NCBI RefSeq assembly: GCF_030534335.1
Contig: NZ_CP130565.1
Coordinates: 1,199,501-1,263,500, forward strand
Reading direction: 5' to 3'
DNA from: Marivirga harenae
Lineage (GTDB): Bacteria > Bacteroidota > Bacteroidia > Cytophagales > Cyclobacteriaceae
Length of the DNA stretch: 64,000 nt
Made by a program: the position numbers and the translations under genes. The notes under the pieces were generated by a model. The model had not been told where the DNA came from, did no database searches, and saw nothing but the letters and a program-made list of their open reading frames with translations. How positions within the stretch are numbered: the first letter of the stretch is position 1; every line of letters begins with the position of its first letter. Below, piece by piece: positions 5,001-20,839 of the stretch.

Positions 5001-5360
5001 ATGGGAATAAAATACAGCGAAAGTACAATTTATGAGATCTGTAGAAGGATAGACACAGGCGAGATCAGCTACAGCGATGCACAGAGAGAATATGGCGTAA
5101 AAAGTCAAGGTAGTATTGGTCCTTGGCTTAGAAAATATAGGGCAGGATTGCTACCTTGTATGGAAATGGGTAAATATGACGATTTATCGAAAGAAGAGCT
5201 CATAAAAGCTTTGGAAGAGTCCAATAAGCGTTTAGAAGCTTCTAATCTGCAAACAAAGGCTTATGAAGCCATCATTGAAGTAGCGGAAGAACGATTTAAC
5301 ATTGAAATCAGAAAAAAGTCTGGTACCAAGCCATCCAACGACTCCAAGAAAGAAAAGTAA
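5001..5360 (+). CDS. IS3-family transposase OrfA (DNA-binding part)
   Basis: This 119-residue protein begins with a helix-turn-helix (ICRRIDTGEISYSDAQREYG, then SIGPWLRKY) that binds the terminal repeats. It continues with a leucine/glutamate-rich stretch at about 70-110, the dimerising zipper typical of IS3 OrfA. At 5312-5318 the zero frame reads AGA AAA AAG, so the heptamer A_AAA_AAG is in the correct phase for -1 programmed frameshifting. The -1 frame then continues without a stop into OrfB, giving the OrfAB transposase. OrfA alone normally moderates transposition. The AAG at the slip site is followed by 13 more sense codons before the OrfA stop. Confidence 0.92.
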   Translation: MGIKYSESTIYEICRRIDTGEISYSDAQREYGVKSQGSIGPWLRKYRAGLLPCMEMGKYDDLSKEELIKALEESNKRLEASNLQTKAYEAIIEVAEERFNIEIRKKSGTKPSNDSKKEK

Positions 5361-5386
5361 AGGCCTCTACTTCAGAGTTATGTAGA

Positions 5387-6232
5387 TTGTTTGGTAAAAC
5401 GAGGCAAGCCTGGTATTACAAACAGCAACAAGATCAAAGTAAATCACAGGAGTATTTTATCATTTACCACATGGTAGAGATGATCCGAAATGACTTACCA
5501 AGAATTGGTACCAGAAAGTTATATCATATGCTTAAGCAGCAATTAGCTGCATATAATATTACAATCTGTAGAGATAAGCTCTTTGATTTATTAAGAGAAT
5601 GGGGGTTGCTCATTAAGAAAAGAAGGAGAGCAACCTTGACCACTCATTCTCATCATTGGTTACGCAAATACCCAAATCTGATTGCTCAAAAACAGATTTA
5701 TAAAAGCAATCAAGTGTGGGTTAGTGATATCACCTATATTCAAATAAAAAGAGATTTTGCTTATCTCAGTTTACTAACTGATGCGTATTCAAGGAAAATA
5801 CTAGGATATTATCTGAGTGAGAACTTATCCAGAGAAGGTCCTATAAAAGCCTTAAAAATGGCCATAAAACAAAAAGGTAAATCATATGTGACTCATCATT
5901 CAGACAGAGGAATCCAATACTGTTGCAAAGGTTACATCGATATACTGCATGAAAGCTTTATTAGAATTAGTATGACAGAGAAGGGAAGCCCATACGAAAA
6001 CGCCATAGCCGAAAGGGTAAACGGTATCTTAAAACACGAGTTTGCATGCAATCAAACTTTTACCTCTTTTAATAAGGCAAAAAACTTTATTGATAAAGCA
6101 ATTAAAACCTATAATACTATTAGACCACATATGAGTTGCAGTTATTTAACACCCGATATTGCACATAAAACTGAAGAGATCATAACACGGAAATGGAAAA
6201 ACTACTATAAAGAAAATGTAAAAGAATACTAG
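5387..6232 (+). CDS. IS3-family transposase OrfB (DDE integrase domain, made as OrfAB by -1 frameshift)
   Basis: The frame is -1 relative to OrfA and carries the retroviral-integrase-like catalytic core. The first Asp is in VWVSDITYIQ, the second in THHSDRGIQYC, and the Glu in SPYENAIAERVNGILKHEF. An N-terminal HTH_21-like helical region (MVEMIRNDLPRIGTRKLYHML) precedes the core. The listed start is only the first ATG. In the cell the protein is expected mainly as a fusion with OrfA through the slippery site at 5312-5318, since the frame is open from there. Length and motifs are complete with no internal stop, which together with intact ends and target duplication suggests a recent insertion. 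Confidence 0.93.
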   Translation: MFGKTRQAWYYKQQQDQSKSQEYFIIYHMVEMIRNDLPRIGTRKLYHMLKQQLAAYNITICRDKLFDLLREWGLLIKKRRRATLTTHSHHWLRKYPNLIAQKQIYKSNQVWVSDITYIQIKRDFAYLSLLTDAYSRKILGYYLSENLSREGPIKALKMAIKQKGKSYVTHHSDRGIQYCCKGYIDILHESFIRISMTEKGSPYENAIAERVNGILKHEFACNQTFTSFNKAKNFIDKAIKTYNTIRPHMSCSYLTPDIAHKTEEIITRKWKNYYKENVKEY

Positions 6233-6362: not shown

Positions 6363-6971
6363 TCATTTATCATTAAATCCATCATCAGACCAATTCCGAG
6401 GATTATTTTTTATGTATTCTGAAATCCGTTGAAATGATTTTTTATCACGAATAATATGATCATGAAAACGGTCCTGCCATCCAAAATCAGGGTTAATCAA
6501 TCGTGCACCAACGGTTACACCCGATTTAAAACCCCGAATAATGGATCCTAAATTTTTTGATTGTGGTCCGAATTGGTTTTTTGGTGGTTTGGTACGCAGG
6601 TTATTTCCGTTGGTGGTTGTGGTCACCGTAGAGACGCGATGCATCTCGTCTCTACCATCCCGGTTCGAACCAGAAATCGAATTATATCGATTATCCCCAA
6701 TCCCAATAATACCATGAAAATGGTTAGGCATCACAATATATTCGCCCATACATAAATTCATGTCCGGTCGCAATTCAAATGTTTTTACCCATTCCGATTC
6801 TACAATTTTTCCGACATCATTTAATAACATTTCTCCGTTTCTTATTTTACCGAAAAAACATTCTCTATTTTTTGTGCAAATGGTTACAAAATATTTTGCT
6901 TTACTCCTGTAATCCCAATTTTGTAATCGTGCTGATTCAGTACGGTATTTGTTTTTGAATTTGTCAGGCAT
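6363..6971 (-). CDS. REP-associated tyrosine transposase (RAYT, Y1_Tnp/IS200-like)
   Basis: About 202 residues of the single-strand HUH nuclease family. The metal-binding HUH motif is HFH in MPNHFHGIIGIG, and the nucleophilic Tyr is probably in RISEYIKNNPRNW near the C-terminus. The start is placed at ATG 6971 (MPDKFKNKYR). The longer open frame up to 7052 begins inside a REP palindrome and would add a REP-encoded leader (METQCIASPP), which is unlikely to be native. The N-terminal RLQNWDYRSKAKYFVTICTKN matches the usual RAYT opening. A REP unit is also embedded in frame at 6628-6655, encoding a linker between the HUH region and the Tyr region. Such domestic transposases cut and move REP units rather than themselves. 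Confidence 0.85.
   Translation of the reverse strand: MPDKFKNKYRTESARLQNWDYRSKAKYFVTICTKNRECFFGKIRNGEMLLNDVGKIVESEWVKTFELRPDMNLCMGEYIVMPNHFHGIIGIGDNRYNSISGSNRDGRDEMHRVSTVTTTTNGNNLRTKPPKNQFGPQSKNLGSIIRGFKSGVTVGARLINPDFGWQDRFHDHIIRDKKSFQRISEYIKNNPRNWSDDGFNDK
6628..6655. repeat. REP palindrome inside the RAYT coding sequence
   Basis: The 28 bases GTAGAGACGCGATG / CATCTCGTCTCTAC pair with a single mismatched position. It has the same core as the units at 6305 and 7025. It keeps the RAYT frame open, encoding the segment around GRDEMHRVST. Confidence 0.85.
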
Positions 6972-7024
6972 GGTTGATTCGTTTGTTCTATCTAGATAAT
7001 AAATTTTAATTTCGTAAAAAATTG

Positions 7025-7052
7025 GTGGAGACGCAATGCATTGCGTCTCCAC
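7025..7052. repeat. REP palindrome upstream of the RAYT gene
   Basis: A perfect 28-bp palindrome, GTGGAGACGCAATG and its complement. It carries CAATG where the 6305 unit has CGATG, so the arm change is compensated on both strands. It lies upstream of the true RAYT start. Confidence 0.88.
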
Positions 7053-7089
7053 TGCCGATGATCATCACCAAATTAAACCCAATGCACAT

Positions 7090-7130
7090 CACAAGCGCCC
7101 ACCAAAACAACCATACACATTGAACTAAAC
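7090..7130 (+). pseudogene. Possible tiny remnant of a uvrA-like 5' end
   Basis: Bases 7094-7113 match 16361-16380, near the start of the tandem uvrA-like gene, at about 18 of 20 positions (the CGCCCACCA.AACAACC core), and a weaker match follows (ACATTGA, then CTAAAC or CTTAAC). It is too short to be certain. It gains weight because a clearer uvrA-5' relic lies at 12021-12120. Confidence 0.35.
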
Positions 7131-7146: not shown

Positions 7147-9003
7147 CTAGTTCTTAGCCAACAAACTGCTGGATTCTACCAGCTTGATGAATTCTATTCT
7201 ATACCCATTTTCATCTTTTCCTTTTGCACTTTGGGCTAAGTCTGTCACTAGCTTATAATCCCCTTTTTCAAGATAATCAGAATCTTTTAAAAGCATTCCG
7301 TAAGTAGCCACTGCAGCCGACCAACGAAAGTTATCAGACGTTTTACCAAGTGCCGTAATTGTATTGTCTACCGTTTTCACAATTAACTGGCTGACTTCTT
7401 CATTGGGAGCTTTATATCTAAACTTCACCGTTAATAGCTCATCGCCATAAGCTACTTTTTCTGTCTTTTGTTTATTTTCCTGATATTTTAAATCATCAAT
7501 TGGTTTGAAATAACTATTCACCCCTTTAGGGATAATTTCATATAAAGCCGTAACCGTATGACCAGAACCGAGCTCCCCAGCGTCTTTTTTATCATTGTTA
7601 AAATCCTCATTATTGAGCTTTCTATTCTCGTAGCCAATTAGTCGATAGGCTGTAACGTTGGCAGGGTTAAACTCTACCTGTATTTTCACATCTTTGGCAA
7701 TGGTAAAAAGAGTACCGCCAAATTCGTTTACCAACACTTTTTTCGCCTCTAAAATATTGTCGATATAAGCATAGTTGCCATTTCCTTTGTCCGCCAATAT
7801 TTCCATTTTTGAATCCTTGTAGTTACCCATTCCAAAGCCTAAAACTGTAAGAAAAACGCCTTCCTTTCTCTTCATTTCAATCAAATCTTCCATGGCTTCA
7901 TTTGAACTTGCTCCCACATTAAAGTCACCATCCGTAGCTAAAATGATGCGGTTGTTGCCTTCTTTCATGAAATTTTCTTTTGCAATTTTATAGGCCAATT
8001 CAATCCCTGCTCCACCAGCAGTGGAACCACCCGCCTGCAAGTTTTGAAGCGCATCGATTATTTTGTCTTTTTCCTTGCCAGAAGTGGGAGGAAGCACACA
8101 CCCTGCAGCACCAGCATACACTACAATAGACACCTTATCCTCTTCTCGGAGCTGGTCAACCAACATTTTCAGGCCTGATTTCAGTAGGGGCAGTTTATTT
8201 TGCGCAAACATAGAGCCCGACACATCTAAAAGAAAAACTAGATTAGAAGCAGGCAGATTCTCTGTTGGGATTACCTTGCCCTGCAAGCCAATTTGCACCA
8301 GTTGATGTTTTTCATCCCAAGGGGCTGGAGCTACTTCTGTGTTGATCGAAAAAGGATCTTGACCAGTTGGTTGTTTGTAGTCATAATTGAAGTAGTTAAT
8401 CATTTCTTCTATTCTCACGGCATCTTTTGGAGGGTTCTGACCATTATTGATAAATCTTCTCATGTTGGAATAAGATGCAGCATCTACATCTATTGAAAAA
8501 GTAGAGAGCGGATGTTGAGTAGCCTCCTGAAAAGTGTTTTCATCAAGACCTTCGTATTCCTCGGTATCTGCTTGATGATTGGGTGGTTCAGCAATTGTGG
8601 GCAAATAAGCTATCTCCTCCTCATAGCTAACCGCTTTTCTTCCTGAAAATATATTCCGCACTGATTTATCAGTGACCACCACTTCAGATAATTGAGAAAC
8701 AGAAGCTTCCATCTTCACATCAATAACAGTACGCCCTTTTATCGACACTTCCTTTTTCTCCATCCCAATGTAGCTAAAAACTAATATTCCTTTTAGTGAA
8801 GATACCTTGATAGAGTATTTTCCATCTAAATCAGTATTTACTCCGGTGGAAGTCCCTTTCAGTAATACATTGACTCCCGGTAAATCTTCTCCACTATCGA
8901 AATCGGTGACTTTCCCGCTGATAGTGATCGTCTGTGCGTTTAACATTGCAGCACTGATCAAAATCAGACCACTTATTCTCATTGCATCCATTAACTTTTT
9001 CAT
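7147..9003 (-). CDS. vWA-domain protein with N-terminal CarboxypepD_reg-like domain and DUF3520
   Basis: About 618 residues from the chosen ATG at 9003 (MKKLMDAMRISG); the frame is open to 9027. A signal peptide ending near LNAQ is followed by a CarboxypepD_reg-like beta-sandwich (TISGKVTDFDSGEDLPGVNV...) and LSEVVVTDKS. Then comes the YfbK-type vWA_N region (STFSIDVDAASYSNMRRFI), a von Willebrand A domain with a full MIDAS motif DVSGSM at about residue 258, and a DUF3520 C-terminus. It should bind a metal-dependent ligand in the periplasm or at the surface. It is transcribed away from an ECF sigma operon whose second protein has the same CarboxypepD_reg-like module, suggesting a shared envelope role. 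The ligand is unknown. Confidence 0.9.
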   Translation of the reverse strand: MKKLMDAMRISGLILISAAMLNAQTITISGKVTDFDSGEDLPGVNVLLKGTSTGVNTDLDGKYSIKVSSLKGILVFSYIGMEKKEVSIKGRTVIDVKMEASVSQLSEVVVTDKSVRNIFSGRKAVSYEEEIAYLPTIAEPPNHQADTEEYEGLDENTFQEATQHPLSTFSIDVDAASYSNMRRFINNGQNPPKDAVRIEEMINYFNYDYKQPTGQDPFSINTEVAPAPWDEKHQLVQIGLQGKVIPTENLPASNLVFLLDVSGSMFAQNKLPLLKSGLKMLVDQLREEDKVSIVVYAGAAGCVLPPTSGKEKDKIIDALQNLQAGGSTAGGAGIELAYKIAKENFMKEGNNRIILATDGDFNVGASSNEAMEDLIEMKRKEGVFLTVLGFGMGNYKDSKMEILADKGNGNYAYIDNILEAKKVLVNEFGGTLFTIAKDVKIQVEFNPANVTAYRLIGYENRKLNNEDFNNDKKDAGELGSGHTVTALYEIIPKGVNSYFKPIDDLKYQENKQKTEKVAYGDELLTVKFRYKAPNEEVSQLIVKTVDNTITALGKTSDNFRWSAAVATYGMLLKDSDYLEKGDYKLVTDLAQSAKGKDENGYRIEFIKLVESSSLLAKN

Positions 9004-9182
9004 AATTGATAATTTTATGTGAAACATATTTGTAGACAGGATGCAGCTACTCCATAAATTCCATAAAACTATTTTTATTTTTTTTACTTTTCGAAAGAAA
9101 TTGGTCTTAATTCTTATGTAAATAGCCTTATAAGGCTCTAATTATTAATATGATGTGAGTACTTAATGTTTAACAACTTACT

Positions 9183-9211
9183 TTTGAATTAAGCTGTGAA
9201 TTTTAATTTTA
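9183..9211 (+). promoter_or_regulatory. Candidate Bacteroidota-type promoter for the sigma-factor operon
   Basis: TTTG at 9183-9186 is followed after 17 bases by TAATTTTA at 9204-9211, seven of eight matches to the -7 consensus TAnnTTTG. It lies 53 bp before the GTG start. In such AT-rich DNA the match could be chance. Confidence 0.3.
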
Positions 9212-9263
9212 TGTATATTATTCAGGTATACAAATTAACTTAGCATTTGTACAGCAAGATTAA

Positions 9264-9839
9264 GTGACAGATAAAAACGATATACAAAAAGAAAAACAAT
9301 TGATTAAGAGATTCCGAAAATCTCAAGATCTGGAACTATTAGGTAAATTATATCAGCCTTATATGCACTTGGTTTACGGAGTATGCCTAAAATATTTGAA
9401 AGATAAAGATTCAGCTCAGGATGCTGTGATGGCTATTTTTGAAGAGTTAGTGATAAAACTTCCCAAGCATGAAGTAGAGAACTTTAAAAGTTGGCTTTAC
9501 GTCCTATCCAAAAACCATTGCTTAATGGAATTGAGAAAGCAAAAACGTCAAAAAACCGACAGTTTTGATTATTCTGACCTTGAGCTTATGGAAAATGGGC
9601 AATTGCAGCATCATGAAGAAGACTATACTTTTCAGGAAGACAATCTGGAAAAATTAACTGCATGTATTGCGCAATTAAAAAAAGAACAAAGGCGATGTGT
9701 GGAGTTGTTTTACTTGGACAAAAAGAGTTATAAAGAAATTACAGATAGTACCTCTTACGAATTAAAGAAAGTGAAAAGCTACATACAAAATGCGAAACGA
9801 AATTTGAAACAGTGCATGGAACAAGGTGAAGAAAGATAA
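9264..9839 (+). CDS. ECF-type RNA polymerase sigma factor
   Basis: This 191-residue protein shows sigma region 2 (YQPYMHLVYGVCLKYLKDKDSAQDAVMAIFEEL) at about 27-60, with SWLYVLSKNHCLMELRKQKR continuing it. Region 4 (CIAQLKKEQRRCVELFYLDKKSYKEI) lies at about 130-160 with a helix-turn-helix tail. There is no region 1.1 or 3, as in ECF/group-4 factors. The start is GTG at 9264, since no ATG in frame precedes region 2. The stop overlaps the next gene by 14 bp, so translation is coupled to the anti-sigma-like protein. Targets are unknown; the divergent vWA gene is an obvious candidate. Confidence 0.92.
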   Translation: MTDKNDIQKEKQLIKRFRKSQDLELLGKLYQPYMHLVYGVCLKYLKDKDSAQDAVMAIFEELVIKLPKHEVENFKSWLYVLSKNHCLMELRKQKRQKTDSFDYSDLELMENGQLQHHEEDYTFQEDNLEKLTACIAQLKKEQRRCVELFYLDKKSYKEITDSTSYELKKVKSYIQNAKRNLKQCMEQGEER

Positions 9840-11196
9840 AAACCATATTGACCCTATTCGAGACCTGAGCATAGAGAAAATGAAAGCCTATGCAAATGGT
9901 ACTTTGAGTCCTGCAGAGCAGCATCAGGTAGAGAAATATTTGCTAAGTCATCCTTTTGAGGCGGAGGCCATGGAAGGTTATTTGGAAAATCCGGATGCGC
10001 TAAATGATTTACCAAGTCTAAAGGCCAAGCTGCAGTCTAAAACTACTCCTAAGCAAGAAAAGCGCGTAATACCTATGTGGAAAAAAGCATTGCCTTATGC
10101 TGCAGTCTTTTTATTGTTCATCATATCTAGTATACTCATTCTCAATTTTTTTCAGCAAGATGAGGCTTTGGCTCCCTTGGCTATTAAATCGGAAGAGGCC
10201 ATAGAATTTGATAAGAACAAAAGCCCTACCAACCCACCCAACGCTTTAGAGGCTGAGGCAATAGAAAAGGAATCCGATAATCAACCGTCTACGGTGGCTG
10301 AAAGCACTGATTCTAATAGTAAGAAAGAAAAAGAACAGCCAGTTCAAACAGTCCAAGATATAGAGCTCCTTGCTCAAAATGAATCGATTAGTACTGAGGA
10401 GCAATTAATAGTATCGGAAACGGCTGTCCCTTATGAAGATACTTTTAAAGAGGTTAATAAAGACTCGATGGTGGGAAAAGTAGCAGGAATTGAGACCGAT
10501 CAAAACAATCCTTCAGCAGCAAGAAGTAAAAAGGTATCTGATTTGGCATCATCTATTGCTCCAACTGATAATGAAACAGTTATCACAGCAAGGAAGAAGA
10601 ATGCGACTCCTCCAACTATTTCAGGAGAGGTGTTAGATGCTGAAACCGGAGAGCCAGTGCCAGGAGCCAACATCATGCTAAAGGGTACAACAATAGCCAT
10701 TAGCACTGATTTAGATGGCAATTTTGAAATTGCAGCAAAGTTAAACGATGTCCTGATAGTGAACTTTATAGGCATGAAACAGCAAGAATTTGTGGTGGGT
10801 GAAAAATCGGGCAATAAAATATATCTAAACACTGATGCTGCCCAATTAAGCGAAGTAGTCGTTACGAATAATGCAGCTGACACAGAAAAAGACAATACTT
10901 ACAATGCTGCAAGACCCAGCATCGGTTTTTCTGATTACCGTGATTACCTCAAAGATAATTTAAGATATCCTCCAAAAGCCCTGGAGGCTGGCACTGAAGG
11001 AAGGGTAAGACTAAAAATAAGTATCAGCACCACGGGCCGTATTGAAGAAGTACAGGTTATAAAAGGACTAGGAGATGGCTGTGATGAGGAGGCAATCAGG
11101 TTAATCAAGGAAGGGCCAAGATGGGAATCTGCTAAAAAAGGAGATACTTCTGTAGCTTCAAGCAAGAAAATTTCGGTTCGATTTAAAATTAAATAA
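9826..11196 (+). CDS. Membrane protein: anti-sigma-like N-terminus, CarboxypepD_reg-like domain, TonB C-terminal domain
   Basis: 456 residues with a GTG start inside the sigma gene. Residues 1-60 (IRDLSIEKMKAYANGTLSPAEQHQVEKYL) resemble the helical cytoplasmic part of anti-sigma factors but lack the zinc-finger Cys/His set. A TM helix follows at about 88-108 (ALPYAAVFLLFIISSILIL), then an acidic low-complexity linker to about 260. A CarboxypepD_reg-like domain (TISGEVLDAETGEPVPGANIM) at about 265-340 ends in LSEVVVTN, and a TonB_C domain (YLKDNLRYPPKALEAGTEGR) fills the C-terminus. A periplasmic or TonB-linked signal could thus be passed to the bound sigma factor. This layout is known in Bacteroidetes; the signal is inferred. 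Confidence 0.88.
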   Translation: MKKDKNHIDPIRDLSIEKMKAYANGTLSPAEQHQVEKYLLSHPFEAEAMEGYLENPDALNDLPSLKAKLQSKTTPKQEKRVIPMWKKALPYAAVFLLFIISSILILNFFQQDEALAPLAIKSEEAIEFDKNKSPTNPPNALEAEAIEKESDNQPSTVAESTDSNSKKEKEQPVQTVQDIELLAQNESISTEEQLIVSETAVPYEDTFKEVNKDSMVGKVAGIETDQNNPSAARSKKVSDLASSIAPTDNETVITARKKNATPPTISGEVLDAETGEPVPGANIMLKGTTIAISTDLDGNFEIAAKLNDVLIVNFIGMKQQEFVVGEKSGNKIYLNTDAAQLSEVVVTNNAADTEKDNTYNAARPSIGFSDYRDYLKDNLRYPPKALEAGTEGRVRLKISISTTGRIEEVQVIKGLGDGCDEEAIRLIKEGPRWESAKKGDTSVASSKKISVRFKIK

Positions 11197-11266: not shown

Positions 11267-11638
11267 CTATTGCTCTGTAACCTCTGATTCAGATTTTGCT
11301 GTCTTAATTTTGAATTTTGTCAGCAATCCCATGGTATTGGCCGCTATTCTAATCACATTACTGTCAGTAATCACCCACAAATATCCAATTTGAGACTTTA
11401 AATCACTAATTGTTTGTTGCCATTGCTTTCTTGCCTCAGTATCATAGCCTGTCATATTGAGGCAATTACAAATGATGTTCGCTTTTTCCTCAGGCTTTAA
11501 GGTACTGGAAAATTCTTCTTTCCATCTTGCAGTAGCTTTAGAAGCATTTTCTTCATTTAGTCGTCCCAGAATTTCGATTCTTAAACAATTCTTTTCAGAC
11601 CTTTCAATCCAGTTTAGAAGTACTTGATTTGTTTCCAT
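11267..11638 (-). CDS. STAS/SpoIIAA-like small protein (hypothetical)
   Basis: 123 residues with no signal peptide or membrane segment. The pattern CLRIEILGRLNEENASKATARWKEEF, then ANIICNCLNMTGYDTEARKQWQQTI, then GYLWVITDSNVIRIAANTMGLL matches the alternating strand-helix plan of STAS or SpoIIAA-like domains, but I see no conserved phosphorylatable Ser that would prove an anti-anti-sigma role. It ends convergently with the anti-sigma/TonB-C gene 70 bp away, so a link to that sigma system is possible but unsupported. Its upstream neighbour is the relic region at 12.0-12.3 kb, from which it is probably transcribed independently. Confidence 0.6.
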   Translation of the reverse strand: METNQVLLNWIERSEKNCLRIEILGRLNEENASKATARWKEEFSSTLKPEEKANIICNCLNMTGYDTEARKQWQQTISDLKSQIGYLWVITDSNVIRIAANTMGLLTKFKIKTAKSESEVTEQ

Positions 11639-12020
11639 AATTGTGTAAGTATTGGATTATTTTTGTTAACAATTTATACGACTATTATGCAATTAGCAGA
11701 CTGATATTACTACTTACAGTCATCAAGCAAATCACACACACTCTCTTAAGGTTTAGTTAGAATCAGCTGAATAACACAAAACATTGTACTATCCGTCCTA
11801 TTAAAACTAATAAAATATTATTATAATTATGTAGCATCTTGTCAAAAAAAATCTGTTTTGGTAATTATTATGGTTGGTTTTGGCTGACTTAATTATGAAA
11901 AAGTTGAGAGACTGTAAGCAATTGTGAAAGCAAATTATGCTTTGCTTTATTGCGAATTCAATTTAACACTGCCGCAACCTTTCTATCTATATGCGTTGAA
12001 AAAAGAAAAAAAGTCTGTAT
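11639..12020. other. AT-rich gap without a recognisable gene
   Basis: About 380 bases between the STAS-like gene and the uvrA relic. I see no sustained open frame, hairpin or RNA fold. The upstream region of the STAS-like gene must lie here. It may hold further sequence of the decayed uvrA/thiolase relic that is no longer recognisable. Confidence 0.5.
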
Positions 12021-12120
12021 GCGCATCAGAATAATCTTAAAAACATAACTTTATCAATTCATGAACACCAATTAATTGTACTGACTTGTTTATCAGGATC
12101 GGGGAAATCCTATTGGCTCA
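12021..12120 (+). pseudogene. Relic of the 5' end of a uvrA-like gene
   Basis: Translation gives AHQNNLKNITLSIHEHQL, then IVLTCLSGSGKSYWL, which aligns without gaps to AHQNNLKNIDLTIPENQL, then IVVTGLSGSGKSSLA of the tandem uvrA-like gene at 16349. The Walker A motif is still readable although the Gly before LSGSGKS is Cys. There is no open reading frame beyond about 35 codons. The match breaks off at about 12120 and thiolase-like sequence begins almost at once. Confidence 0.9.
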
Positions 12121-12126
12121 ATTTGC

Positions 12127-12269
12127 GTTTCCAAGCGTCCATATATTTATAGCCAACTAATGCAAGAGAGGCGTGGGGAAATCAGGCTGATAATTTAAAC
12201 ACAGGTATAATTCTTAATATTGGTGGGTCAGACAGCAGGAAAGCTGTTTCAATAATGGAACGAAAATAA
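12127..12269 (+). pseudogene. Relic of the 3' end of a thiolase gene
   Basis: The DNA aligns to 4814-4952. In the last frame it reads EAWGNQADNLNTGIILNIGG and then SDSRKAVSIMERK before TAA. The thiolase at 3768 has EAWGHQAKNAQTALVVNIGG and SGTSNAVSVLGR there. A frameshift and a stop lie in the first 50 bases, so nothing functional is made. It abuts the uvrA-5' relic directly. Confidence 0.9.
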
Positions 12270-12370
12270 TCTTTCCCCCGCCCCGAGATACACTAACGAA
12301 TTTAAAAATTACAATAGTAAACCATGAGAGGATTTTTTAGAAAAATAGTATAAAAACAAAATACATGAGA

Positions 12371-12799
12371 TTACTTCCTAGGGAGTCTGACAGTATTGTT
12401 CCAGTAATCTCTGATAGTTTCTGCAAGATTATCTAACTCATAAATATCGTCAGGTTTTACAATGTATGAACTAGACTGTTCTTGATATGCCCTTAGAATA
12501 TCCTCTTTTCTTGATGAGGTAGTTAGCATTATAACAGGAACATGTTTGACTTCTTCTATTGATTTAATTATTTTCAAAGCTTCATGCCCATCCATAACGG
12601 GCATATTAATATCCATTAGGATGAGGTCCGGTGTTTCCGCTGCCGAGTAGGGCTCCTCCTTTTTCAGAAAATTAATAGCCATTGCACCGTTCTCGACATG
12701 GTGCAGCTTATCTACAAATGTAAGCCCTTCCAATGCCTCTCTGATAAGAAACGCATCTTCTTTGCTATCTTCTACCAAAAGTATATTTAGTTTTCTCAT
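12371..12799 (-). CDS. Single-domain response regulator (Rcp1-type receiver)
   Basis: 142 residues forming one receiver domain with no output domain. The acidic pair is in LLVEDSKEDAFLI, the phosphoacceptor is Asp63 in PDLILMDINMPVMDG, the Thr is in VIMLTTSS near residue 94, and the conserved Lys is in SSSYIVKP. The long insert between strand 2 and Asp63 (FLKKEEPYSAAETPD) and the LRKLNILLVEDS start are typical of Rcp1-like partners of PAS or phytochrome kinases. It follows the large kinase gene by 73 bp on the same strand, so the two are probably co-transcribed and form a phosphorelay pair. Confidence 0.92.
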   Translation of the reverse strand: MRKLNILLVEDSKEDAFLIREALEGLTFVDKLHHVENGAMAINFLKKEEPYSAAETPDLILMDINMPVMDGHEALKIIKSIEEVKHVPVIMLTTSSRKEDILRAYQEQSSSYIVKPDDIYELDNLAETIRDYWNNTVRLPRK

Positions 12800-12872: not shown

Positions 12873-15800
12873 TTATCTTTCTATATTATCTTTTGTCTTT
12901 GGTATCGTAAATACAAACTTAGTTCCTTGGGGTTGATTTGCCTCGAACCAGATCTTCCCACCGTAAGCAGAAACAATTTTTTTACAAGTGGCTAAACCTA
13001 TTCCCGTTCCAGTATATTCACTATTTGAATGCAACCTCTTGAATACCTCAAATACTCTATCCTGATGTTGCCTTTTAATTCCTATTCCATTGTCTGCAAC
13101 TGTAAAAACCCAGTTCTTTTCGTCTTCTTCCCCATAAATATCTACTTGTGCCCTATTTCCCTTGGCCTGATATTTTATTGCATTATCTATTAAATTAGTA
13201 AATAATTGAATAAACGAGGTAGTATCGCCAGTTAAAACAGGTAAATTAGATTTGGAGAGTACCAAATTATTCTGATTTATATCATTTCTGTAGTTATCAA
13301 AAATTGTGTCTAAAAGACTGTTAAGATTCACCTCTTTTTGCTCAATTACACCAGTTTTGGAAAAATCCAGAATATCAGAAATCAGATTTTTCATCCTCTT
13401 TGCGCTGTGGGAAGCTATGTCAATATAGCTATTTGCTTTATCATCTAAATGTGCACTATACTTTTTTTGCAAGATGGACAAATAAGAGGTGATACCCCGT
13501 AATGGCTCCTTTAGATCATGTGCAGTTATATATGCAAACTGTTCGAGCTCTTCATTTTTTTGTTCAAGTTCCTTTTGTATCGATTTGATTTGGCTAATAT
13601 CTGTTGCTGCAAATAGATAGCCATGTGCATTTTGAACTTGTATAATTTCACTAACAGACAATAATACGGGTACAATTATACCATCTTTCCCCTTCATAGT
13701 CCATTCACCTAGGTTGTGCTGTTTATTATTAGCTAGTGAGTGTAGAAAATCTGCTGTCAAGTATTTTTTTTCAGAGCTACCCATAAGCTCTCTTGCCATT
13801 TGATTCCACTCTTCTTCTAAAAAAAGGATGTTCTGAATACTACTCCCAGTGATAGATGCCTTATCATATCCTAATATTCTTTGAACGCCAATGTTTGTAT
13901 CAAGTATGTTTCCCTCTTTATCCGTTGACACAAAAGCTACCTCGGTTGTGGCATCCATTAGTGCTTTATTCTCTGCTAATAAAGCCTTTAGGCGAATTTC
14001 AGTTTGTTTTAACTTCGAAATATCAATAATCTGCGATATAAAATAAAGTACATTTCCGCTTTCGTCTCTAACCATCGAAACCGCCAGAATAATATAGACA
14101 ATATGACCTTCCTTATGAAAGTACCTTTTTTCCATTTGGTAATGATTTCTCTTACCTTCCACTAATTCTTGCAATAAGTCCAGATCAGCATGAAGATCAT
14201 CAGGATGGGTAATGTCTTGAAATGTGAGTTTTAATAATTCCTTCTTGGAATACCCTACAGTTTGGCAAACATTTTCATTCACCTCCAACCATTTACCATT
14301 TTGATCTAGCAATGCCATTCCAATGGCGGCATTTTCAAAATTACCTCTAAACGCCTGTTCACTAATTCGTAGCGCTTCCTCCTTCTGCTTTCTCTCCGAA
14401 ATATCTTGGTGAGTGCCGTACATCATCAATGGTTTTCCCTCTTTCGTCCATTCAAAGACTTTTCCTCTGTCAAGAACCCATACCCAATGTCCGTCCTTAT
14501 GCTTCATACGGGCTTCAAAATCATAATATTCTGCCTTTTTCTCAAAGCATTCATTAAGCCTCCTACTAGATTCCTCTAAATCATCGGGGTGAGCCAAATT
14601 CATCCATGTATCTATACTGATAGGTGCCAGTTCATCCAGGGTGTAGCCTGCAATCTCCGCCCATCGTTCATTAAATTCTGTTTCACCTGTTTGCACGTTC
14701 CATTCCCAGGTCCCCACATTAGTCCCTTCAATTACGGATTTATATTTCCTTCTGGCATCAACAATTTCTTGTATTGGACTACCTTCGGGTAAAACATAAA
14801 TGACTTTCCCAAATTCATCAAATATGGGTTTCATACTAAAGAGAATCGTGATGGGGGTTTTGTTAGAAAGCCAAACTTCCACTTCATAAGATACAGTTTC
14901 TCCACCAACAGCCTTCTGAAAATTCTTTTTGAGCTCTTTTTGAGTTTGTGGAGATATCTGCCACCAATAGCAATCCCAAAAATATTTGCCGATTACCTCT
15001 TCATGCTTTAAATCGGCCAGACCAAGTGCAGTATCATTAGCTTCTAATAAAATACCTTCAATACTCAGAAAACCAATGAAAGTAAAAGTCGAATTAAATA
15101 TACTTTTAAATTTTAGTTCGCTTTCCTTAATTTTTGTAATGTCCTGAAAGCTACCGATAATCGTATTTTCTACCTTTCTACCTGTACTTCGCACCCATTT
15201 TTGCCTACCTTTCGCAGTAATTAATTTACATTCTAGATCGAATGGTACGTCATTCTGTACTACATTTTCAAGCGCTTGCGTTATTAAACTTCGATAGTCA
15301 GGGTGGTAAAACTCTATAGCGTTGGCTTGGTTATGATCGTAATCTAAGGGCAATTCATGAATTTCATAGACTACCTTACTCCAAACAGTCTGTCCTGAAG
15401 CAATATGGAGCTCCCAAGTCCCTATTTGATTAGCCTCCTCTGTGACCGTTAATAGTTGATTTTTTTTGTTTAGGTCCTCATTAGACTCGGCCAATCTCCT
15501 TTGAGACCGCCTTAGCTCTAAGAGATTCATCGTCTGTTTCGCCAACTGCTGTAACAGCTGAATTTGCTCCTCATTAAGCTTTTTTGGAGCATCATCAATT
15601 ACGCACAATGTCCCAAGAGGAAAGCCGTTTTTATTTACTAAAGGAATTCCAGCATAAAAAATGACATTTGGATCGTCTGTAGTTATAGGATTATCAGAAA
15701 AGCGAGTATCTTGACGAGCATCTTCGACAATAAATGCTTGGTCAGGAATGTTGATAGCATGAGCGCAAAATGAGATGTTTTTGGGTGTCTCTCTAGCTTT

Positions 15801-15995
15801 TATTCCGTGATGAGACAAAAACCATTGCTTATCTGCAGTGACCAAGCTAATCAGCGAAATCTTGGTTTCGCAAATCTTTGCTGCCATCGAAGTGATGAAA
15901 TCAAATTCATCTTCTTCATTCAATCCAATGATTTGGTAGGACTCTAACTCCTTTTGGCGATTTATTTCGTTTATGGGGATTTGAGGTTTTTTCAT
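12873..15995 (-). CDS. Hybrid-input sensor histidine kinase (GAF, five PAS, HisKA, HATPase)
   Basis: 1,040 residues with no membrane segment, so probably cytosolic. A GAF domain occupies about 20-170 (FITSMAAKICETKISLISLV...). Five PAS/PAC repeats follow, opening near IGTWELHIASG, KFKSIFNSTFTFIGFLSIEG, VGTWEWNVQTGETEFNERW, NFENAAIGMALLDQNG and TTEVAFVSTDKEG. The phosphoacceptor His is about residue 826 in YITAHDLKEPLRG. The ATPase has the N box (LIDNAIKYQ), G1 (VADNGIGI) and G2 (GTGIGLATC). The HDLKEPL form of the H box belongs to the Rcp1-partner kinase class, which fits the receiver downstream. The signal is unknown; a chromophore or small ligand on GAF/PAS is possible. Confidence 0.93.
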   Translation of the reverse strand: MKKPQIPINEINRQKELESYQIIGLNEEDEFDFITSMAAKICETKISLISLVTADKQWFLSHHGIKARETPKNISFCAHAINIPDQAFIVEDARQDTRFSDNPITTDDPNVIFYAGIPLVNKNGFPLGTLCVIDDAPKKLNEEQIQLLQQLAKQTMNLLELRRSQRRLAESNEDLNKKNQLLTVTEEANQIGTWELHIASGQTVWSKVVYEIHELPLDYDHNQANAIEFYHPDYRSLITQALENVVQNDVPFDLECKLITAKGRQKWVRSTGRKVENTIIGSFQDITKIKESELKFKSIFNSTFTFIGFLSIEGILLEANDTALGLADLKHEEVIGKYFWDCYWWQISPQTQKELKKNFQKAVGGETVSYEVEVWLSNKTPITILFSMKPIFDEFGKVIYVLPEGSPIQEIVDARRKYKSVIEGTNVGTWEWNVQTGETEFNERWAEIAGYTLDELAPISIDTWMNLAHPDDLEESSRRLNECFEKKAEYYDFEARMKHKDGHWVWVLDRGKVFEWTKEGKPLMMYGTHQDISERKQKEEALRISEQAFRGNFENAAIGMALLDQNGKWLEVNENVCQTVGYSKKELLKLTFQDITHPDDLHADLDLLQELVEGKRNHYQMEKRYFHKEGHIVYIILAVSMVRDESGNVLYFISQIIDISKLKQTEIRLKALLAENKALMDATTEVAFVSTDKEGNILDTNIGVQRILGYDKASITGSSIQNILFLEEEWNQMARELMGSSEKKYLTADFLHSLANNKQHNLGEWTMKGKDGIIVPVLLSVSEIIQVQNAHGYLFAATDISQIKSIQKELEQKNEELEQFAYITAHDLKEPLRGITSYLSILQKKYSAHLDDKANSYIDIASHSAKRMKNLISDILDFSKTGVIEQKEVNLNSLLDTIFDNYRNDINQNNLVLSKSNLPVLTGDTTSFIQLFTNLIDNAIKYQAKGNRAQVDIYGEEDEKNWVFTVADNGIGIKRQHQDRVFEVFKRLHSNSEYTGTGIGLATCKKIVSAYGGKIWFEANQPQGTKFVFTIPKTKDNIER

Positions 15996-16348
15996 TCAGC
16001 TTATACAATTGGAAATGGCGGTTGTGAACCAGCCAGAATTTAGAAAAATACGATTTGTTTATAATCTATTGTACTTTACTAAAAGTACAAATAAAAATGA
16101 ACTTTCAAAATACATTTTATAGTTGGAGACGGAAATATTCCATCCTCTATTTCTTCACATAATAGTATATTTTTCTGCCTTAGATATATTCATTATTTTA
16201 ATAGAAACGCAATTTTTTTGGTCTACTCTTTTAAAAAAGCACTTCCAGTTGGATCAAATTGATCATCTAGTTAATATACAAGGCTAAGATTGAATCATCA
16301 TGCTGTAATATTCTTCTTACCTTTAAATTTCCAAAAGAAAAGCAGAAT
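15996..16348. promoter_or_regulatory. Divergent intergenic region with a perfect inverted repeat
   Basis: 353 bases separate the kinase (leftward) from the UvrA-like gene (rightward), so both promoters lie here. At 16069-16077 and 16082-16090, TTGTACTTT and AAAGTACAA form a perfect 9-bp inverted repeat with the 4-base spacer ACTA. This has the shape of a dimeric regulator site, though a hairpin is equally possible. No strong -33/-7 pair stood out. Confidence 0.45.
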
Positions 16349-19300
16349 ATGAAGATCATAAACGCCCACCAGAACAACCTCAAAAACATTGACTTAACAA
16401 TACCTGAAAACCAACTAATTGTGGTTACTGGATTATCAGGTTCAGGAAAATCTTCTTTGGCTATGGGTGTGATCGCAAATGAAGGATACCGTTACTTTTT
16501 AGAAAGCCTGCCAGCCTATAATCAACAGAACGGACAGTTAATCCCTACTGCTGAAGTAGATGACATTCAAGATTTGCCACCAGTGATCAAAGTGGAACAA
16601 TCAAAACGCTTTCAATCTATCAATACTACTTTTGGTACGCTTTCAGAGTTGACCTCCATTTTCCGAATTCTATTTGCACGCTATTCAGGGGAAGAAACGA
16701 TGAGCAAATCATTATTTTCCTTTAATCATCCGCGGGGAGCCTGTGAAATATGCCGAGGCATAGGTGATGCGGAATATATAGATCTTGAAAAACTCATTGG
16801 GGATGAAAATAAGACGCTGCGAGAAGGAGCCATCACCACTACCCTTCCCGGTGGCTATATAGTTTATTCTCAGATTACGGTGGAGGAACTCAATAAGGTT
16901 TGCAACGCACACGGCTTTAATGTGGACATTCCATGGAAGGAGCTTACAGCTGAACAGCAAGATGTAGTCTTAAATGGTAGTGATCGACTTAAAGTCTTTT
17001 ATGGTAAGCATGGATTGGAGTCCCGATTGCGGTGGGAAGGAATCAAAGCAAAGCCCAGAGAAGAAGGCTATTACAAAGGAATGCTCCCCATCATGCAGGA
17101 TATTCTCAGGAGAGACCGAAACCCTAACATCTTAAAATTTGCCAGCTCTAAAGTCTGTCCAAGTTGTGATGGAGCAAGAATCAAAGCTGAGCATCTAAAA
17201 TACGAATGGCACGGGCTGAATTTTCAAGGCTGGATGGAGCTTTCATTGAGCGACTTATATGATAAACTTAATTCGCTAACACTTTCAGAAGGTGAAAAAA
17301 CATTAGTGGATAAGATTTGCACTCAACTGTATGACCTTATTCGCCTGGGAATGGAGGATTATCAGTTGAGTGCCCCTAGTATAGAAATTTCCTCCGGTGA
17401 TGCGCAAAGAATCAAATTGATTAATCAGGTGAATAGTAATTTGCAGGGGATTCTATATGTTTTTGATGAACCTTCTATAGGATTGTCATCAGACTATCAA
17501 AAATACTTACTCCACATACTGGATCGATTAATTAGAAGAGGCAATACGGTGATGGTGGTGGAGCATGATTTAGATTTCATCCAGTCCGCAGATTGGATAG
17601 TTGAATTGGGACCGCAGGCAGGTGTTCACGGTGGTGAAGTTGTTTTCAATGGCTCTATCGATGACTTCCTGAAGTGCAAGGACAATAGAAGTCCGACATT
17701 AGAAGCACTGAAAAAGGGAAATGCCGTAGATTATCCAATTCCAAACAAAGTCTCTGCCTACAATTTTGTACCTGAGGAGCAACAACTAACAGTGGTGAGT
17801 AGAAAGAACCCCCAAATACTACAAGGCATTTCCAGCTTTTGTGAAAAACAGGAACTGAACATGCATATGGTAACAGATCAACCGATTGGAAAAACGCCAC
17901 GCAGTAACCCTGCTACATATACAGGCTTAGGGGATAAAATCCGAGATTTACTAGCCAAAACTTCGGACGCAAAAGAATCAAAATTAGCTAAAGGAGCCTT
18001 TTCCTTTAATAATAAAACAGGGAGATGTGAGGCCTGCGAAGGTGCTGGGGTGATTACCCTGTCCATGAGTGCGCTTGGGAATATCAATCAGATCTGTCCT
18101 ACTTGTAATGGCAAGCGATTTAAAAAGAAAGTGCTCCTTGTAGAATGGATGGGAAAAAATATAGCAGACCTTTACGACTTAAGCATTGAAGCCGCCTATG
18201 ATTTATTTTCAGGAGAAAAAAAGATTACTGAAATTCTTTCATTGATGTTGAAGCTGGGACTCGGTTACATCAAATTGGGGCAGCCTTCCAATACCTTGTC
18301 GGGAGGTGAGGCACAGCGAATAAAACTCACCAAACATTTCACTAAGAAATCGAAGAAGACAATTTTATTGCTGGAAGAACCCAGCATTGGCTTGCACCAA
18401 AAAAATGTAACACAATTGCTGAATGCCCTCCATGAACTGAAGCAACAAACTGCTGGTATCATTTGCTTTGAAAATCATGCGCTGTTCCAACAGAGCTGTG
18501 ATACTTTAGTGGATAATGCACTTGAAGTAAAGCCCATAAAAATTAAGGAAGAACCTAAGCAGCAACGAGAATGGATCTCGATTCAGGGAGCTCGAACACA
18601 TTCTCTAAAAGACTTAAATCTGGAAGTGCCCAAGCATCAATTATCTGTGGTTACAGGGATTTCGGGTTCCGGAAAATCATCGCTTGTGATTGACACGCTG
18701 CACGGCTACGGATTGCAGGAAATGACTAAGCAGTTCTCCAGTTATCAGCAATCACGAGTAGGCGTGAATTTTCAATTTGAAGTCAACCATATTGAAGGTC
18801 TCACACCAACCATTTGTATTACTAGAAAGCAAAAGAACTATTCAATTCGAACAGATATTACTAAGCAAACGGGGATTGATAAAATATTACGGTTTGCTTT
18901 TTCCCGAAAGGCACAATACGAAGGCGAGGATTTATCAGCCAGTCATTTTTCCAATAATCATGAATTAGGGAGATGTAAAGTTTGCGAAGGAATAGGTGAG
19001 GAATTATTACCTGATCTTCAAAAACTAGTGCTAGACGAGAAAAAAAGCATAGCCGATGGACTCTTCTCACACAACAAAGCAGTTGCATATTATGGTGATC
19101 CAGCAGGACAGCATATGGCAATCTTGAAGCAGGTTGGAGCGGAACACGGCTTTGGTTTAGAAACCCCTTTTAAAGAATTAAGTGACGATCAAAAAGAAAT
19201 TCTCCTGCAAGGAACAGGGGAAAAAGTGTGGAAAGCTATCTGGGAATACAAAACCAAAACACGAACAGGAAGGCAAGACTTGACAATGCAGTGGGAAGGT

Positions 19301-20839
19301 CTATTCCATTACTTGCAAGATGAATATTTCAAAACACGAAAGAACAAAAACATTAGCCAGCTGACTTCTCTGTTTTCATTTAGTGAATGCAAACATTGTT
19401 TGGGCAGCGGATTAAAGCCGGAAAGATTGAAATTTACAATAGCCGGTAAATCTATTCATGATATTAAATCCATGGATTTTACGATCTTGAGTGATTGGCT
19501 AACGGCCAGTGACAAAGAAGTTGATGTGGAGGGAAAATTATTGGCTAAGATCGAACCTCATTTAATTAACACAATTGAGCGGGCAAAGCAATTGCATATT
19601 GACCATTTGCAACTCAACAGAAAATCACCAAGCCTTTCCGGTGGAGAAAATCAAAGAGTAGAACTGATCAAACAGCTGAATAGTCCATTAAAAGGTATTA
19701 CCTATTTATTGGATGAGCCTACTGCCGGCTTGTCGAACGATAATATTCCGGATCTGATTCAAATCCTGAAAGAGTTGATTGCAAAAGGGAATACAGTCAT
19801 CGTTATCGAACATAACAAAGACATTATTCATGCAGCAGATCATCTTGTACAGATTGGTCCCCAAGCTGGTAAGCTCGGTGGCTGTACTACCTATCAGGGC
19901 AATACGGAAGGTCTGCTAAAGCAAAACGATTGTCATCCTTTCCTGAAAGAGCCAAGCAAAGCAGTTGAGCTCAAAGATGGTAATAAACATATTAGGATTC
20001 GCAAATTAGCTAAACATACGTTGGTCAGAAATGAATTAGACCTACCCATTGGTGGCATCACTGCGCTGACCGGAAAATCAGGAATTGGCAAAACCACTTT
20101 GGTAAAAGAGATCATCATACCTAGTATAAAAACTGGAAAAGCGATTAACTGTGAAAAAATTGATTTTCCTAAAAATTATGAAGGCGCGCAGTATTTTGAA
20201 CCTAAAAAGCTCAACAGCCATTCCGCTACACTTTTGGTTTCTTACTTAGATTTACTCAAGGACATTACCAAAATAATGGCTAATGAAACAGAGGCAAAGC
20301 CAGCTGACTTTTCTTATAAAACAAAGGGAAGTCAGTGCCCAAACTGTAAAGGAAAAGGTTTTGTAGAAACCAGTCTGGACGTAGCAGCCAATGCTATTGA
20401 AAAATGTGAAGACTGTGATGGCAAGCGCTATCAAAAACACATTCTTCAGTATGAAGTGCAGGGACGAAATATAGCTGATATTCTGGATTTTAATATTACA
20501 GAATTAATAGCATGGTTTACGGATTTTAAAGTGTCGAATTCTACGCTTAATTTTATCAAAAGCCTAGAGAAAATCGGTTTGGCCCATTTGAGTTTAGGGC
20601 AAAGCGTCCAGTCACTTTCCTCAGGTGAAAAGCAACGATTATTACTGCTACGCTGGCTTCAAGATGCTCCCAAAAATGAGCTTTTTATTTTAGATGAGCC
20701 GAGCACGGGATTGCATTATGCGGATATTGATTTGCTATATACCATTTTAGCGAAACTGAGTACCCACAATGATATATTAGTGATTGATCATAATCCATAC
20801 TTATTGAAAATGATTGGGGTTGGAGTGGTTTTGAATTGA
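16349..20839 (+). CDS. Tandem UvrA-like protein (two UvrAs in one chain, four ABC modules)
   Basis: 1,496 residues against about 940 for standard UvrA. Four ABC units occur in order. (1) Walker A GLSGSGKSS ~28, zinc pairs CEIC ~131 and CPSC ~270, signature SSGDAQR ~348, DEPSIGLS ~372. (2) no Walker A, but PIGKTPRSNPATYTG ~512, CEAC ~560, CPTC ~583, SGGEAQR ~651, EEPSIGLH ~676. (3) GISGSGKSS ~770, CKVC ~876, CKHC ~1014, SGGENQR ~1097, DEPTAGLS ~1122. (4) GKSGIGKTT ~1241, CPNC ~1330, CEDC ~1353, SSGEKQR ~1424, DEPSTGLH ~1449. Each half is compact, with little room for the UvrB-binding insert, so this is a class-II-like UvrA duplicated and fused. It may bind DNA or confer drug resistance without UvrB. 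The start ATG is well placed. A relic of its 5' end lies at 12021. Confidence 0.92.
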   Translation: MKIINAHQNNLKNIDLTIPENQLIVVTGLSGSGKSSLAMGVIANEGYRYFLESLPAYNQQNGQLIPTAEVDDIQDLPPVIKVEQSKRFQSINTTFGTLSELTSIFRILFARYSGEETMSKSLFSFNHPRGACEICRGIGDAEYIDLEKLIGDENKTLREGAITTTLPGGYIVYSQITVEELNKVCNAHGFNVDIPWKELTAEQQDVVLNGSDRLKVFYGKHGLESRLRWEGIKAKPREEGYYKGMLPIMQDILRRDRNPNILKFASSKVCPSCDGARIKAEHLKYEWHGLNFQGWMELSLSDLYDKLNSLTLSEGEKTLVDKICTQLYDLIRLGMEDYQLSAPSIEISSGDAQRIKLINQVNSNLQGILYVFDEPSIGLSSDYQKYLLHILDRLIRRGNTVMVVEHDLDFIQSADWIVELGPQAGVHGGEVVFNGSIDDFLKCKDNRSPTLEALKKGNAVDYPIPNKVSAYNFVPEEQQLTVVSRKNPQILQGISSFCEKQELNMHMVTDQPIGKTPRSNPATYTGLGDKIRDLLAKTSDAKESKLAKGAFSFNNKTGRCEACEGAGVITLSMSALGNINQICPTCNGKRFKKKVLLVEWMGKNIADLYDLSIEAAYDLFSGEKKITEILSLMLKLGLGYIKLGQPSNTLSGGEAQRIKLTKHFTKKSKKTILLLEEPSIGLHQKNVTQLLNALHELKQQTAGIICFENHALFQQSCDTLVDNALEVKPIKIKEEPKQQREWISIQGARTHSLKDLNLEVPKHQLSVVTGISGSGKSSLVIDTLHGYGLQEMTKQFSSYQQSRVGVNFQFEVNHIEGLTPTICITRKQKNYSIRTDITKQTGIDKILRFAFSRKAQYEGEDLSASHFSNNHELGRCKVCEGIGEELLPDLQKLVLDEKKSIADGLFSHNKAVAYYGDPAGQHMAILKQVGAEHGFGLETPFKELSDDQKEILLQGTGEKVWKAIWEYKTKTRTGRQDLTMQWEGLFHYLQDEYFKTRKNKNISQLTSLFSFSECKHCLGSGLKPERLKFTIAGKSIHDIKSMDFTILSDWLTASDKEVDVEGKLLAKIEPHLINTIERAKQLHIDHLQLNRKSPSLSGGENQRVELIKQLNSPLKGITYLLDEPTAGLSNDNIPDLIQILKELIAKGNTVIVIEHNKDIIHAADHLVQIGPQAGKLGGCTTYQGNTEGLLKQNDCHPFLKEPSKAVELKDGNKHIRIRKLAKHTLVRNELDLPIGGITALTGKSGIGKTTLVKEIIIPSIKTGKAINCEKIDFPKNYEGAQYFEPKKLNSHSATLLVSYLDLLKDITKIMANETEAKPADFSYKTKGSQCPNCKGKGFVETSLDVAANAIEKCEDCDGKRYQKHILQYEVQGRNIADILDFNITELIAWFTDFKVSNSTLNFIKSLEKIGLAHLSLGQSVQSLSSGEKQRLLLLRWLQDAPKNELFILDEPSTGLHYADIDLLYTILAKLSTHNDILVIDHNPYLLKMIGVGVVLN

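Follow-up and report, generated by a model that had tools for sequence, protein, structure and literature searches.

Three kinds of described system, presented in two papers, come closest to the locus reported here. In a conjugation study with E. coli, as reported in PMC3240628, 56 of 60 clones gave a PCR product of a duplication of the anchor and not that of the expected linear event; 14 were sequenced, with duplications of 109-950 bp, and the authors credit a single crossover of circular, probably re-circularised molecules. The introduction of PMC3240628 also names S. pneumoniae, A. baylyi, and P. stutzeri in connection with homology-facilitated illegitimate recombination (HFIR), the second kind; as the criterion for HFIR we took a microhomology of 3-10 bp at the illegitimate junction, present in most cases. 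A third kind is represented by the transfer hotspots of PMC5635113, which are described there as free of mobile elements and fed by recombination in flanking core genes. The literature was searched for a prior description of a locus like ours and yielded these two papers on related systems, and the comparisons made below extend to that literature, as far as the accounts in PMC3240628 and PMC5635113 go.

Organization of the locus

The window, i.e., the whole stretch of 64,000 nucleotides that was analysed, comes from a 4.37 Mb chromosome of the genus Marivirga, available as a single contig. The interval of interest lies between a thiolase-domain gene (T) and a uvrA-like gene (U); it contains genes for a response regulator (RR) and a histidine kinase (HK), a scrap of the 3' end of T (T3'), and two scraps of the 5' end of U (U5'), the older of which is designated scar 1 and the younger scar 2. 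Relatives are denoted by the letter G and a number; G003 is M. sericea DSM 4125. The features are as follows.

3768-4952, + strand: T, intact thiolase-domain protein, left boundary gene (Pfam Thiolase_N and Thiolase_C_1)
5001-6232, + strand: insertion sequence of the IS3 family with two ORFs (NCBIfam NF033516 on the second ORF, 218.7 bits against a cut-off of 160)
6363-7052, - strand: REP-associated-transposase-like gene, below called the REP gene (NF047646, 52.7 bits, under the cut-off of 80)
7082-7123, + strand: scar 1, first part of an earlier U, with the REP-side promoter still attached to it (79.5% identity to sites 1-44 of the window's own U)
7147-11196: first added block, with genes for a YfbK-type vWA protein (- strand), a sigma factor (+ strand) and an anti-sigma/TonB_C protein (+ strand) (Pfam for vWA and TonB_C)
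12019-12112, + strand: scar 2, former U from the start codon to about codon 35, with a 13-bp deletion
12113-12269, + strand: T3' scar joined to scar 2, thiolase 3' end, frameshifted
12371-12799, - strand: RR, second added block (PF00072; 94% nucleotide identity to G004)
12873-15995, - strand: HK with GAF/PAS domains, second added block (95.4% nucleotide identity to G004)
16199-16348, + strand: upstream region of intact U, which probably arrived with the kinase block (its 150 bp score 197 against the region upstream of intact U in G004)
16349-20839, + strand: U, intact UvrA-like protein of 1496 aa, right boundary gene (TIGR00630, 1039.9 bits against a cut-off of 729.8; PF17755)
22976-24967, - strand: EF-G-like (Tet-protection-like) GTPase, next boundary gene (NF012153, 505 bits, under the cut-off of 775)

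T was matched in all 10 genomes of the genus. The IS3 element was absent from the other compared T-U regions, and a relative of it is present elsewhere in the genome of G006. A palindrome at 7030-7047 accompanies the REP gene. The names sigma and anti-sigma follow the earlier note on this DNA and the position of the genes; the vWA-sigma-anti-sigma block was also found in G003, G004, and G006, with no match in the regions of G002 or G007. Between the anti-sigma gene and scar 2 lies an ORF of 123 aa (11267-11638) that has no Pfam match and no tblastn match in the eight other compared regions.

With 1496 aa, U is oversized for a UvrA-like protein. Copies at 74-78% identity are found in Psychroflexus and Psychroserpens, which we take to belong to a class other than that of Marivirga, and some copies within Marivirga are equally distant (68-84% identity). 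This similarity suggests a transfer between classes.

The joint of two gene ends

According to the earlier note, a relic of the start of uvrA is joined to a relic of the end of a thiolase gene, with the intact thiolase gene on the left and the intact uvrA on the right. Our analysis confirmed this U5'-T3' fusion at 12019-12269; both parts have the same orientation and lie between the intact T and U. Translation of 12021-12269 gave the peptide quoted in the note. Alignment to both genes, which had been proposed as a check, placed each half well above chance. By tblastn, the U half (12009-12110) corresponds to U residues 2-35 (73.5% identity, E 3e-7) and the T half (12144-12263) to T residues 355-394 (47.5%, E 5e-6), while reversed T, U, EF-G-like, and PLP-gene proteins, used as a control, gave zero matches at E 0.01. 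At the DNA level, the U half scored 92 against the window's own U and the T half 84 against its own T, the top of 1000 shuffles being 34 in either case. The two parts were said to be separated by seven bases; instead, U passes straight into T at about 12110-12116, and a spacer is absent. Scar 2 retains the start codon of U (12019-12021), which the 13-bp deletion relative to the U of G003 puts out of frame (judged by eye). Its identity to the window's own U is 0.69, the closest copy being the U of G006 (0.77); the T3' scrap is identical to T of the window at 106 of 163 positions and to T of G003 at 107 of 163, a near tie that favours neither as its source.

A search for further copies of the joint, suggested along with the alignment, led to G004, another Marivirga, in which the joint (L021:9640-10052) is less damaged. 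There U codons 1-69, with the reading frame still open, are fused to T from about codon 324, and the fusion is followed, as in the window, by RR, HK, and an intact U. About 150 bp across the original joint of G004 are gone in the window, which means that the window's joint was shortened secondarily or is an independent one. The T3' scraps of the two genomes are identical at 157 of 165 positions and the spacers that follow at 127 of 135. The scrap and spacer together (window 12117-12370) are 94-95% identical to G004, i.e., more so than the 4-fold sites of the adjacent kinase (0.849); hidden constraint or rate variation are possible explanations.

The interval in related genomes

The T-U interval was mapped in six genomes (window, G002, G003, G004, G006, and G007), and its content was different in all; U was not near T in G005, G008, and G009. 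M. sericea has the order T-REP-vWA-sigma-anti-sigma-U, without the joint, RR, or HK. Its anti-sigma gene directly precedes U, with a matching promoter, and this arrangement is the empty, pre-insertion site. G002 and G007 have T, a gene for a protein of 614-618 aa, the REP gene, and U, with two extra genes in G007; a homologue of the 614-618-aa gene in G004 has a weak Cys/Met-PLP match. No U5' scar was called in the intervals of G002 and G007, where the best score reached 30 (nulls 26/36) and 32 (nulls 23/28), respectively. In the window, a gene for 615 aa (45887-47734) is 74-77% identical to a gene that five relatives have beside or close to T; it lies 41 kb from T and adjoins a response-regulator-like gene.

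In G006, a U5' scar is followed by what its sequence presumably makes a DHH-phosphoesterase-like gene, then by a different regulator-kinase pair and U. A candidate for a decayed T3' scrap behind this scar scored 21 (shuffle mean 17.8), which 171 of 1000 shuffles reached, and was rejected. Since it stays at shuffle level, the U5'-T3' joint is claimed for the window and G004 alone.

Sequences upstream of the scrap and of the intact gene

The earlier note explained the joint by a tandem duplication of the segment between a T3' part and a U5' part. This accounts for the duplicated gene ends, and it yields the joint in the correct order and orientation. However, a duplication of one segment within the chromosome predicts the same DNA upstream of both copies of U, and in neither the window nor G004 were the two upstream regions related. 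For scar 2, the preceding 150 bp scored 60 against the region upstream of the intact U in G003 (top of 1000 shuffles 41) and 19, which is chance level, against that of the window's own intact U. The region upstream of the U scrap in G004 scored 75 against G003 and 28 against its own intact U, the tops of 300 shuffles being 38 and 41, respectively. The regions upstream of the intact U, in turn, scored 197 between the window and G004 (150 bp), and that of the window scored 20, 28, 21, and 20 against those of G003, G006, G007, and G002, all inside the shuffles; that of G004 likewise did not exceed shuffles against these four. As the DNA upstream of the scrap resembles that of G003 and the DNA upstream of the intact U does not, the scrap would represent the former U, still at its original place, and the intact gene would stand in a new context.

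The interiors argue in the same direction. They were proposed to be unequal remains of tandem copies, but in a tblastn search of the window, the part to the right of the joint lacked a second vWA, sigma, or anti-sigma gene, and the part to the left lacked RR and HK. The kinase-regulator pair does not have the look of a later insertion either (an origin also offered for it): T scrap, RR, and HK form one gapless stretch that the window and G004 have in common at about 95% identity. A duplication within the chromosome, after which each copy would have lost or exchanged genes, is therefore an improbable origin of the joint. In a variant of it, the second interior may have been replaced together with the promoter of U after the duplication, but that exchange would have to end near the start of U.

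The regulator-kinase block

From the joint to about position 16190, i.e., over some 4 kb, the window and G004 are aligned without gaps at about 95% identity, with a range of 0.85 to 1.00 in 100-bp bins. The identity at 4-fold sites between the two genomes was 0.849 for HK and 0.851 for RR, against 0.587 for rpoB, 0.444 for T, and 0.388 for U among the comparison genes; vWA and anti-sigma had 0.637 and 0.640, and sigma 0.707 (41 sites only). The blocks stand in two backgrounds, IS3-REP-scar 1-vWA in the window and TlpA-T3' scar-PLP gene-vWA in G004. A full-length close copy of HK together with the T3'-regulator block was found in these two only among the 10 genomes of the genus. At the scale of the family, 12 of 295 genomes, the window's and G004 included, have a match to HK at E <=1e-120, and the best match outside the genus is 71% identical. 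Because the block is more alike than the neighbouring genes and occupies two backgrounds, it was most likely passed between lineages once these had diverged.

Proposed origin of the joint and hybrid gene starts

The empty site of M. sericea, the unlike flanks of the scrap and the intact gene, and the shared block together indicate that the 5' end of U received a block that had belonged to another version of the locus. We consider it likely that the joint is the scar of such an insertion, whichever of two routes was taken. The starting chromosome would have had the order T ... anti-sigma-U, the state kept by M. sericea. A foreign fragment T3'-regulator-kinase-U5' from a second version of the interval, with the putative order T-regulator-kinase-U, would have entered by transformation or a similar process and joined at the 5' end of U. 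On the right side, this would be an ordinary homologous crossover within the first approximately 100 bp of U; on the left side, the U5'-to-T3' junction would be made by end-joining. If the fragment was a circle, closure of the ring would itself have formed the U5'-T3' joint, and one crossover in U5' would insert the entire ring. If it was linear, homology-facilitated illegitimate recombination ending within U would give the same product. Either way, start and promoter of the intact U would be new, and its previous start would be left as junk by the T3' scrap. Among the points against insertion, the donor allele was not found in the 10 genomes of the genus, the flank behind the T scrap resembles none of the seven intact T flanks tested, and the match of the scar 2 flank is modest (60 vs 41). 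The scar described in the earlier note is real and its geometry was read correctly, but it most likely records two versions of the locus being joined and not one being doubled.

For the circle, the pertinent evidence comes from the two starts of U in G004. At sites 1-12, the scrap agrees with the U of G002 at 12 of 12 and with that of the window at 8 of 12; at sites 13-108, it differs from the window's U at 2 of 96, whereas in any 96 bp of the first 1.4 kb the intact U of G004 has at least 10 differences from the window's U. Conversely, the intact U of G004 has one difference from the window's U in the first 23 sites and then 16 in 85 (sites 24-108, Fisher p 0.0007). Thus read, the two starts are probably largely complementary hybrids, which fits a single reciprocal crossover between sites 13 and 23. 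Sites 109-207 of the scrap are mixed, with 23 of 99 differing from the window's U and 18 of 99 from that of G004, and do not suit a clean hybrid of two parts; the crossover call depends on few diagnostic sites. Unlike the scrap of G004, scar 2 of the window is decayed and not similar to the window's U; therefore, the evidence for a circle is that of G004 alone. The proposed event resembles the single-crossover integration of re-circularised molecules, as presented in PMC3240628, in that part of the anchor is duplicated (at least 207 bp in G004 vs 109-950 bp there) and a junction of anchor and insert is formed. It differs in that the product there was obtained in the laboratory with a plasmid, while here it is a fossil in wild genomes, with two of them stacked at one gene in the window.

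The linear route, with a crossover in U on the right, T3' end-joined into U codon 69 on the left and no circle, is a real possibility that we hold to be somewhat short of an even one. Its product would be identical. As in HFIR according to PMC3240628, one side would be homologous and the other illegitimate, with short or no homology at the junction: at most a few bases match at the joint of G004 (judged by eye), where the native sequences on both sides have diverged. Moreover, scar 1 and the scar of G006 stop at other positions in U, as illegitimate ends would; U5' scars end at about codons 14, 23, and 69, and at codon 35 in the window, where the deletion may have shortened the scar. On the other hand, a linear event predicts a wholly native U5' scrap, but the scrap of G004 is hybrid, being window-like at sites 13-108. 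Resident DNA, which the cases covered in PMC3240628 generally lose, shows no evident deletion in comparison with G003, whose order T-REP-vWA-sigma-anti-sigma-U5' is present in full on the left side of the window's joint.

A further alternative is that the window and G004 have one joint by common ancestry, the regulator-kinase genes having been homogenised later through ordinary homologous recombination between the two, and the scrap of G004 refreshed by gene conversion from the intact U. The gene order is alike in both, and at sites 136-165 the scrap is identical to the U of G004 (30/30); against this, the upstream backgrounds differ and there is a step in identity near the joint. We regard a shared ancestral joint as rather unlikely; since it explains spread and not origin, it can be compatible with insertion of a block at U5'.

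An earlier scar and the probable order of events

Scar 1 (7082-7123), which the earlier note missed, lies between the REP gene and the vWA gene, and M. sericea has its counterpart at L022:9794-9843. The 150 bp upstream of scar 1 scored 153 and 167 against the regions upstream of U in G002 and G007, respectively, and 23 against that of the window's own intact U. The match is in part the REP palindrome, which is a repeat, but the stretch from the palindrome to the start codon matches as well. An earlier event of like kind would thus have struck U, with scar 1 and the vWA-sigma-anti-sigma block as its traces. Because the DNA upstream of scar 1 matches the relatives with adjacent REP and U, the comparison is explained most simply if an ancestral arrangement REP-U was joined by the vWA-sigma-anti-sigma set and, afterwards, by the regulator-kinase block.

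Other gene-end scars

Scars of gene ends are not confined to U. T3' scars were found in G004 and G006, both behind a TlpA-like gene, and the EF-G-like gene has left a scar of the 3' type in G004 and one of the 5' type in G006. Seven of 11 scars (scar 1 and scar 2 of the window, scar 1 of G003, the U scars of G004 and G006, the T3' scar of G006, and the EF-G-like 3' scar of G004) have an outer flank that differs from that of the intact gene in the same genome and agrees with the one at an undisturbed copy in a different species; the flank match of the G006 U scar includes the REP palindrome, a repeat. Of the four that deviate, the two T3' scraps at the joints match each other only, the TlpA-side T3' scar of G004 matches nothing, and the EF-G-like 5' scar of G006 matches both its own gene and that of G002. 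As some of the 11 scars are common by descent or transfer, there were fewer events than scars.

The EF-G-like 3' scrap of G004 (L021:19966-20000 and L112:1-241) lies between U and the EF-G-like gene. It is identical to the intact copy at 117 of the last 120 bp and at 122 of the 157 preceding, and its outer flank scored 125 against G002 and 22 against its own intact gene. The EF-G-like 5' scrap of G006 is 75 bp long and 94.7% identical, and it precedes the intact gene by about 2.7 kb. Its upstream DNA scored 65 against that of its own intact gene (top shuffle 36) and 73 against G002; it is in common with the intact gene, as tandem duplication predicts, and for this scar a plain tandem duplication would fit too.

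In a scan of 439 kb for copies of gene ends, 273 ORFs of at least 150 aa were included and same-strand copies outside ORFs were counted, matches inside other ORFs and on the opposite strand being left out. Such copies belonged to 7 of 21 boundary genes (T, U, and EF-G-like, counted by hand) and to 3 of 252 others (Fisher p 6e-7); the latter three comprise a palindromic gene of the REP type, an ORF overlapping T at its start, and a repeat. The T3' scar of the window and scar 1 of G003 fell under the threshold of the scan. As the regions had been picked around T and U, the scan compares neighbours and not whole genomes. A separate scan for U5' scars covered 40 of 43 U loci (three with too short an upstream region were skipped) and flagged two, M. 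sericea and Fulvivirga kasyanovii; the other 38 were at most 8 above their nulls. The scar of F. kasyanovii, at L075:1443-1509, repeats the initial 68 bp of the UvrA-like gene at about 89% identity and precedes the intact gene by 3.4 kb, with three ORFs between, so that a similar scar occurs in another genus.

Some integrative elements use gene ends. Repeated insertion at one gene start with restoration of the gene resembles their behaviour, and a REP-type transposase-like gene and an IS3 element are present within the interval. Yet the second block has RR and HK as its only ORFs of at least 80 aa, with no recombinase gene; the scars end at varying positions of U in place of constant att ends, and other scars are ends of T and of the EF-G-like gene. 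An element, whether site-specific or transposable, whose insertion at U5' would rebuild the gene is, consequently, a very improbable source of the joint.

Implications for the history of the locus

The U5' scrap and the intact U5' are direct repeats around T3'-RR-HK in both the window and G004. It is conceivable, though we would rather doubt it, that T3'-regulator-kinase between two copies of U5' is a mobile unit without mobility genes, and the locus a self-perpetuating site of accretion. If so, recombination between the U5' repeats would excise the block as a circle carrying U5', which could enter any chromosome having U, restoring U and leaving a scar each time; each capture would make the repeats for the next exchange. 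Within Marivirga, such sites would have served several times over, at T, U, and the EF-G-like gene; the U homologue of F. kasyanovii may be a further case.

Like the hotspots described in PMC5635113, the locus has a variable interval between conserved genes, a second block without an integrase, and exchange via the flanking genes. Unlike them, as presented there, it shows a one-sided crossover and gene-end scars, their exchange being a double crossover and, by inference, scarless. As clean double crossovers should leave no trace, the history of a hotspot is hard to read. At this locus, captures are marked by the boundary-gene ends that they displaced, so that extant genomes show the order of capture, the empty sites, and the probable point of crossover. 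The recombination is of known kinds, and the unusual feature is the readable sequence of events retained at the locus. Gene-end scars could be searched for systematically, which would give the rate of one-sided or circular single-crossover uptake of DNA in wild bacteria, a route of integration that, to our knowledge, is known mainly from laboratory constructs.
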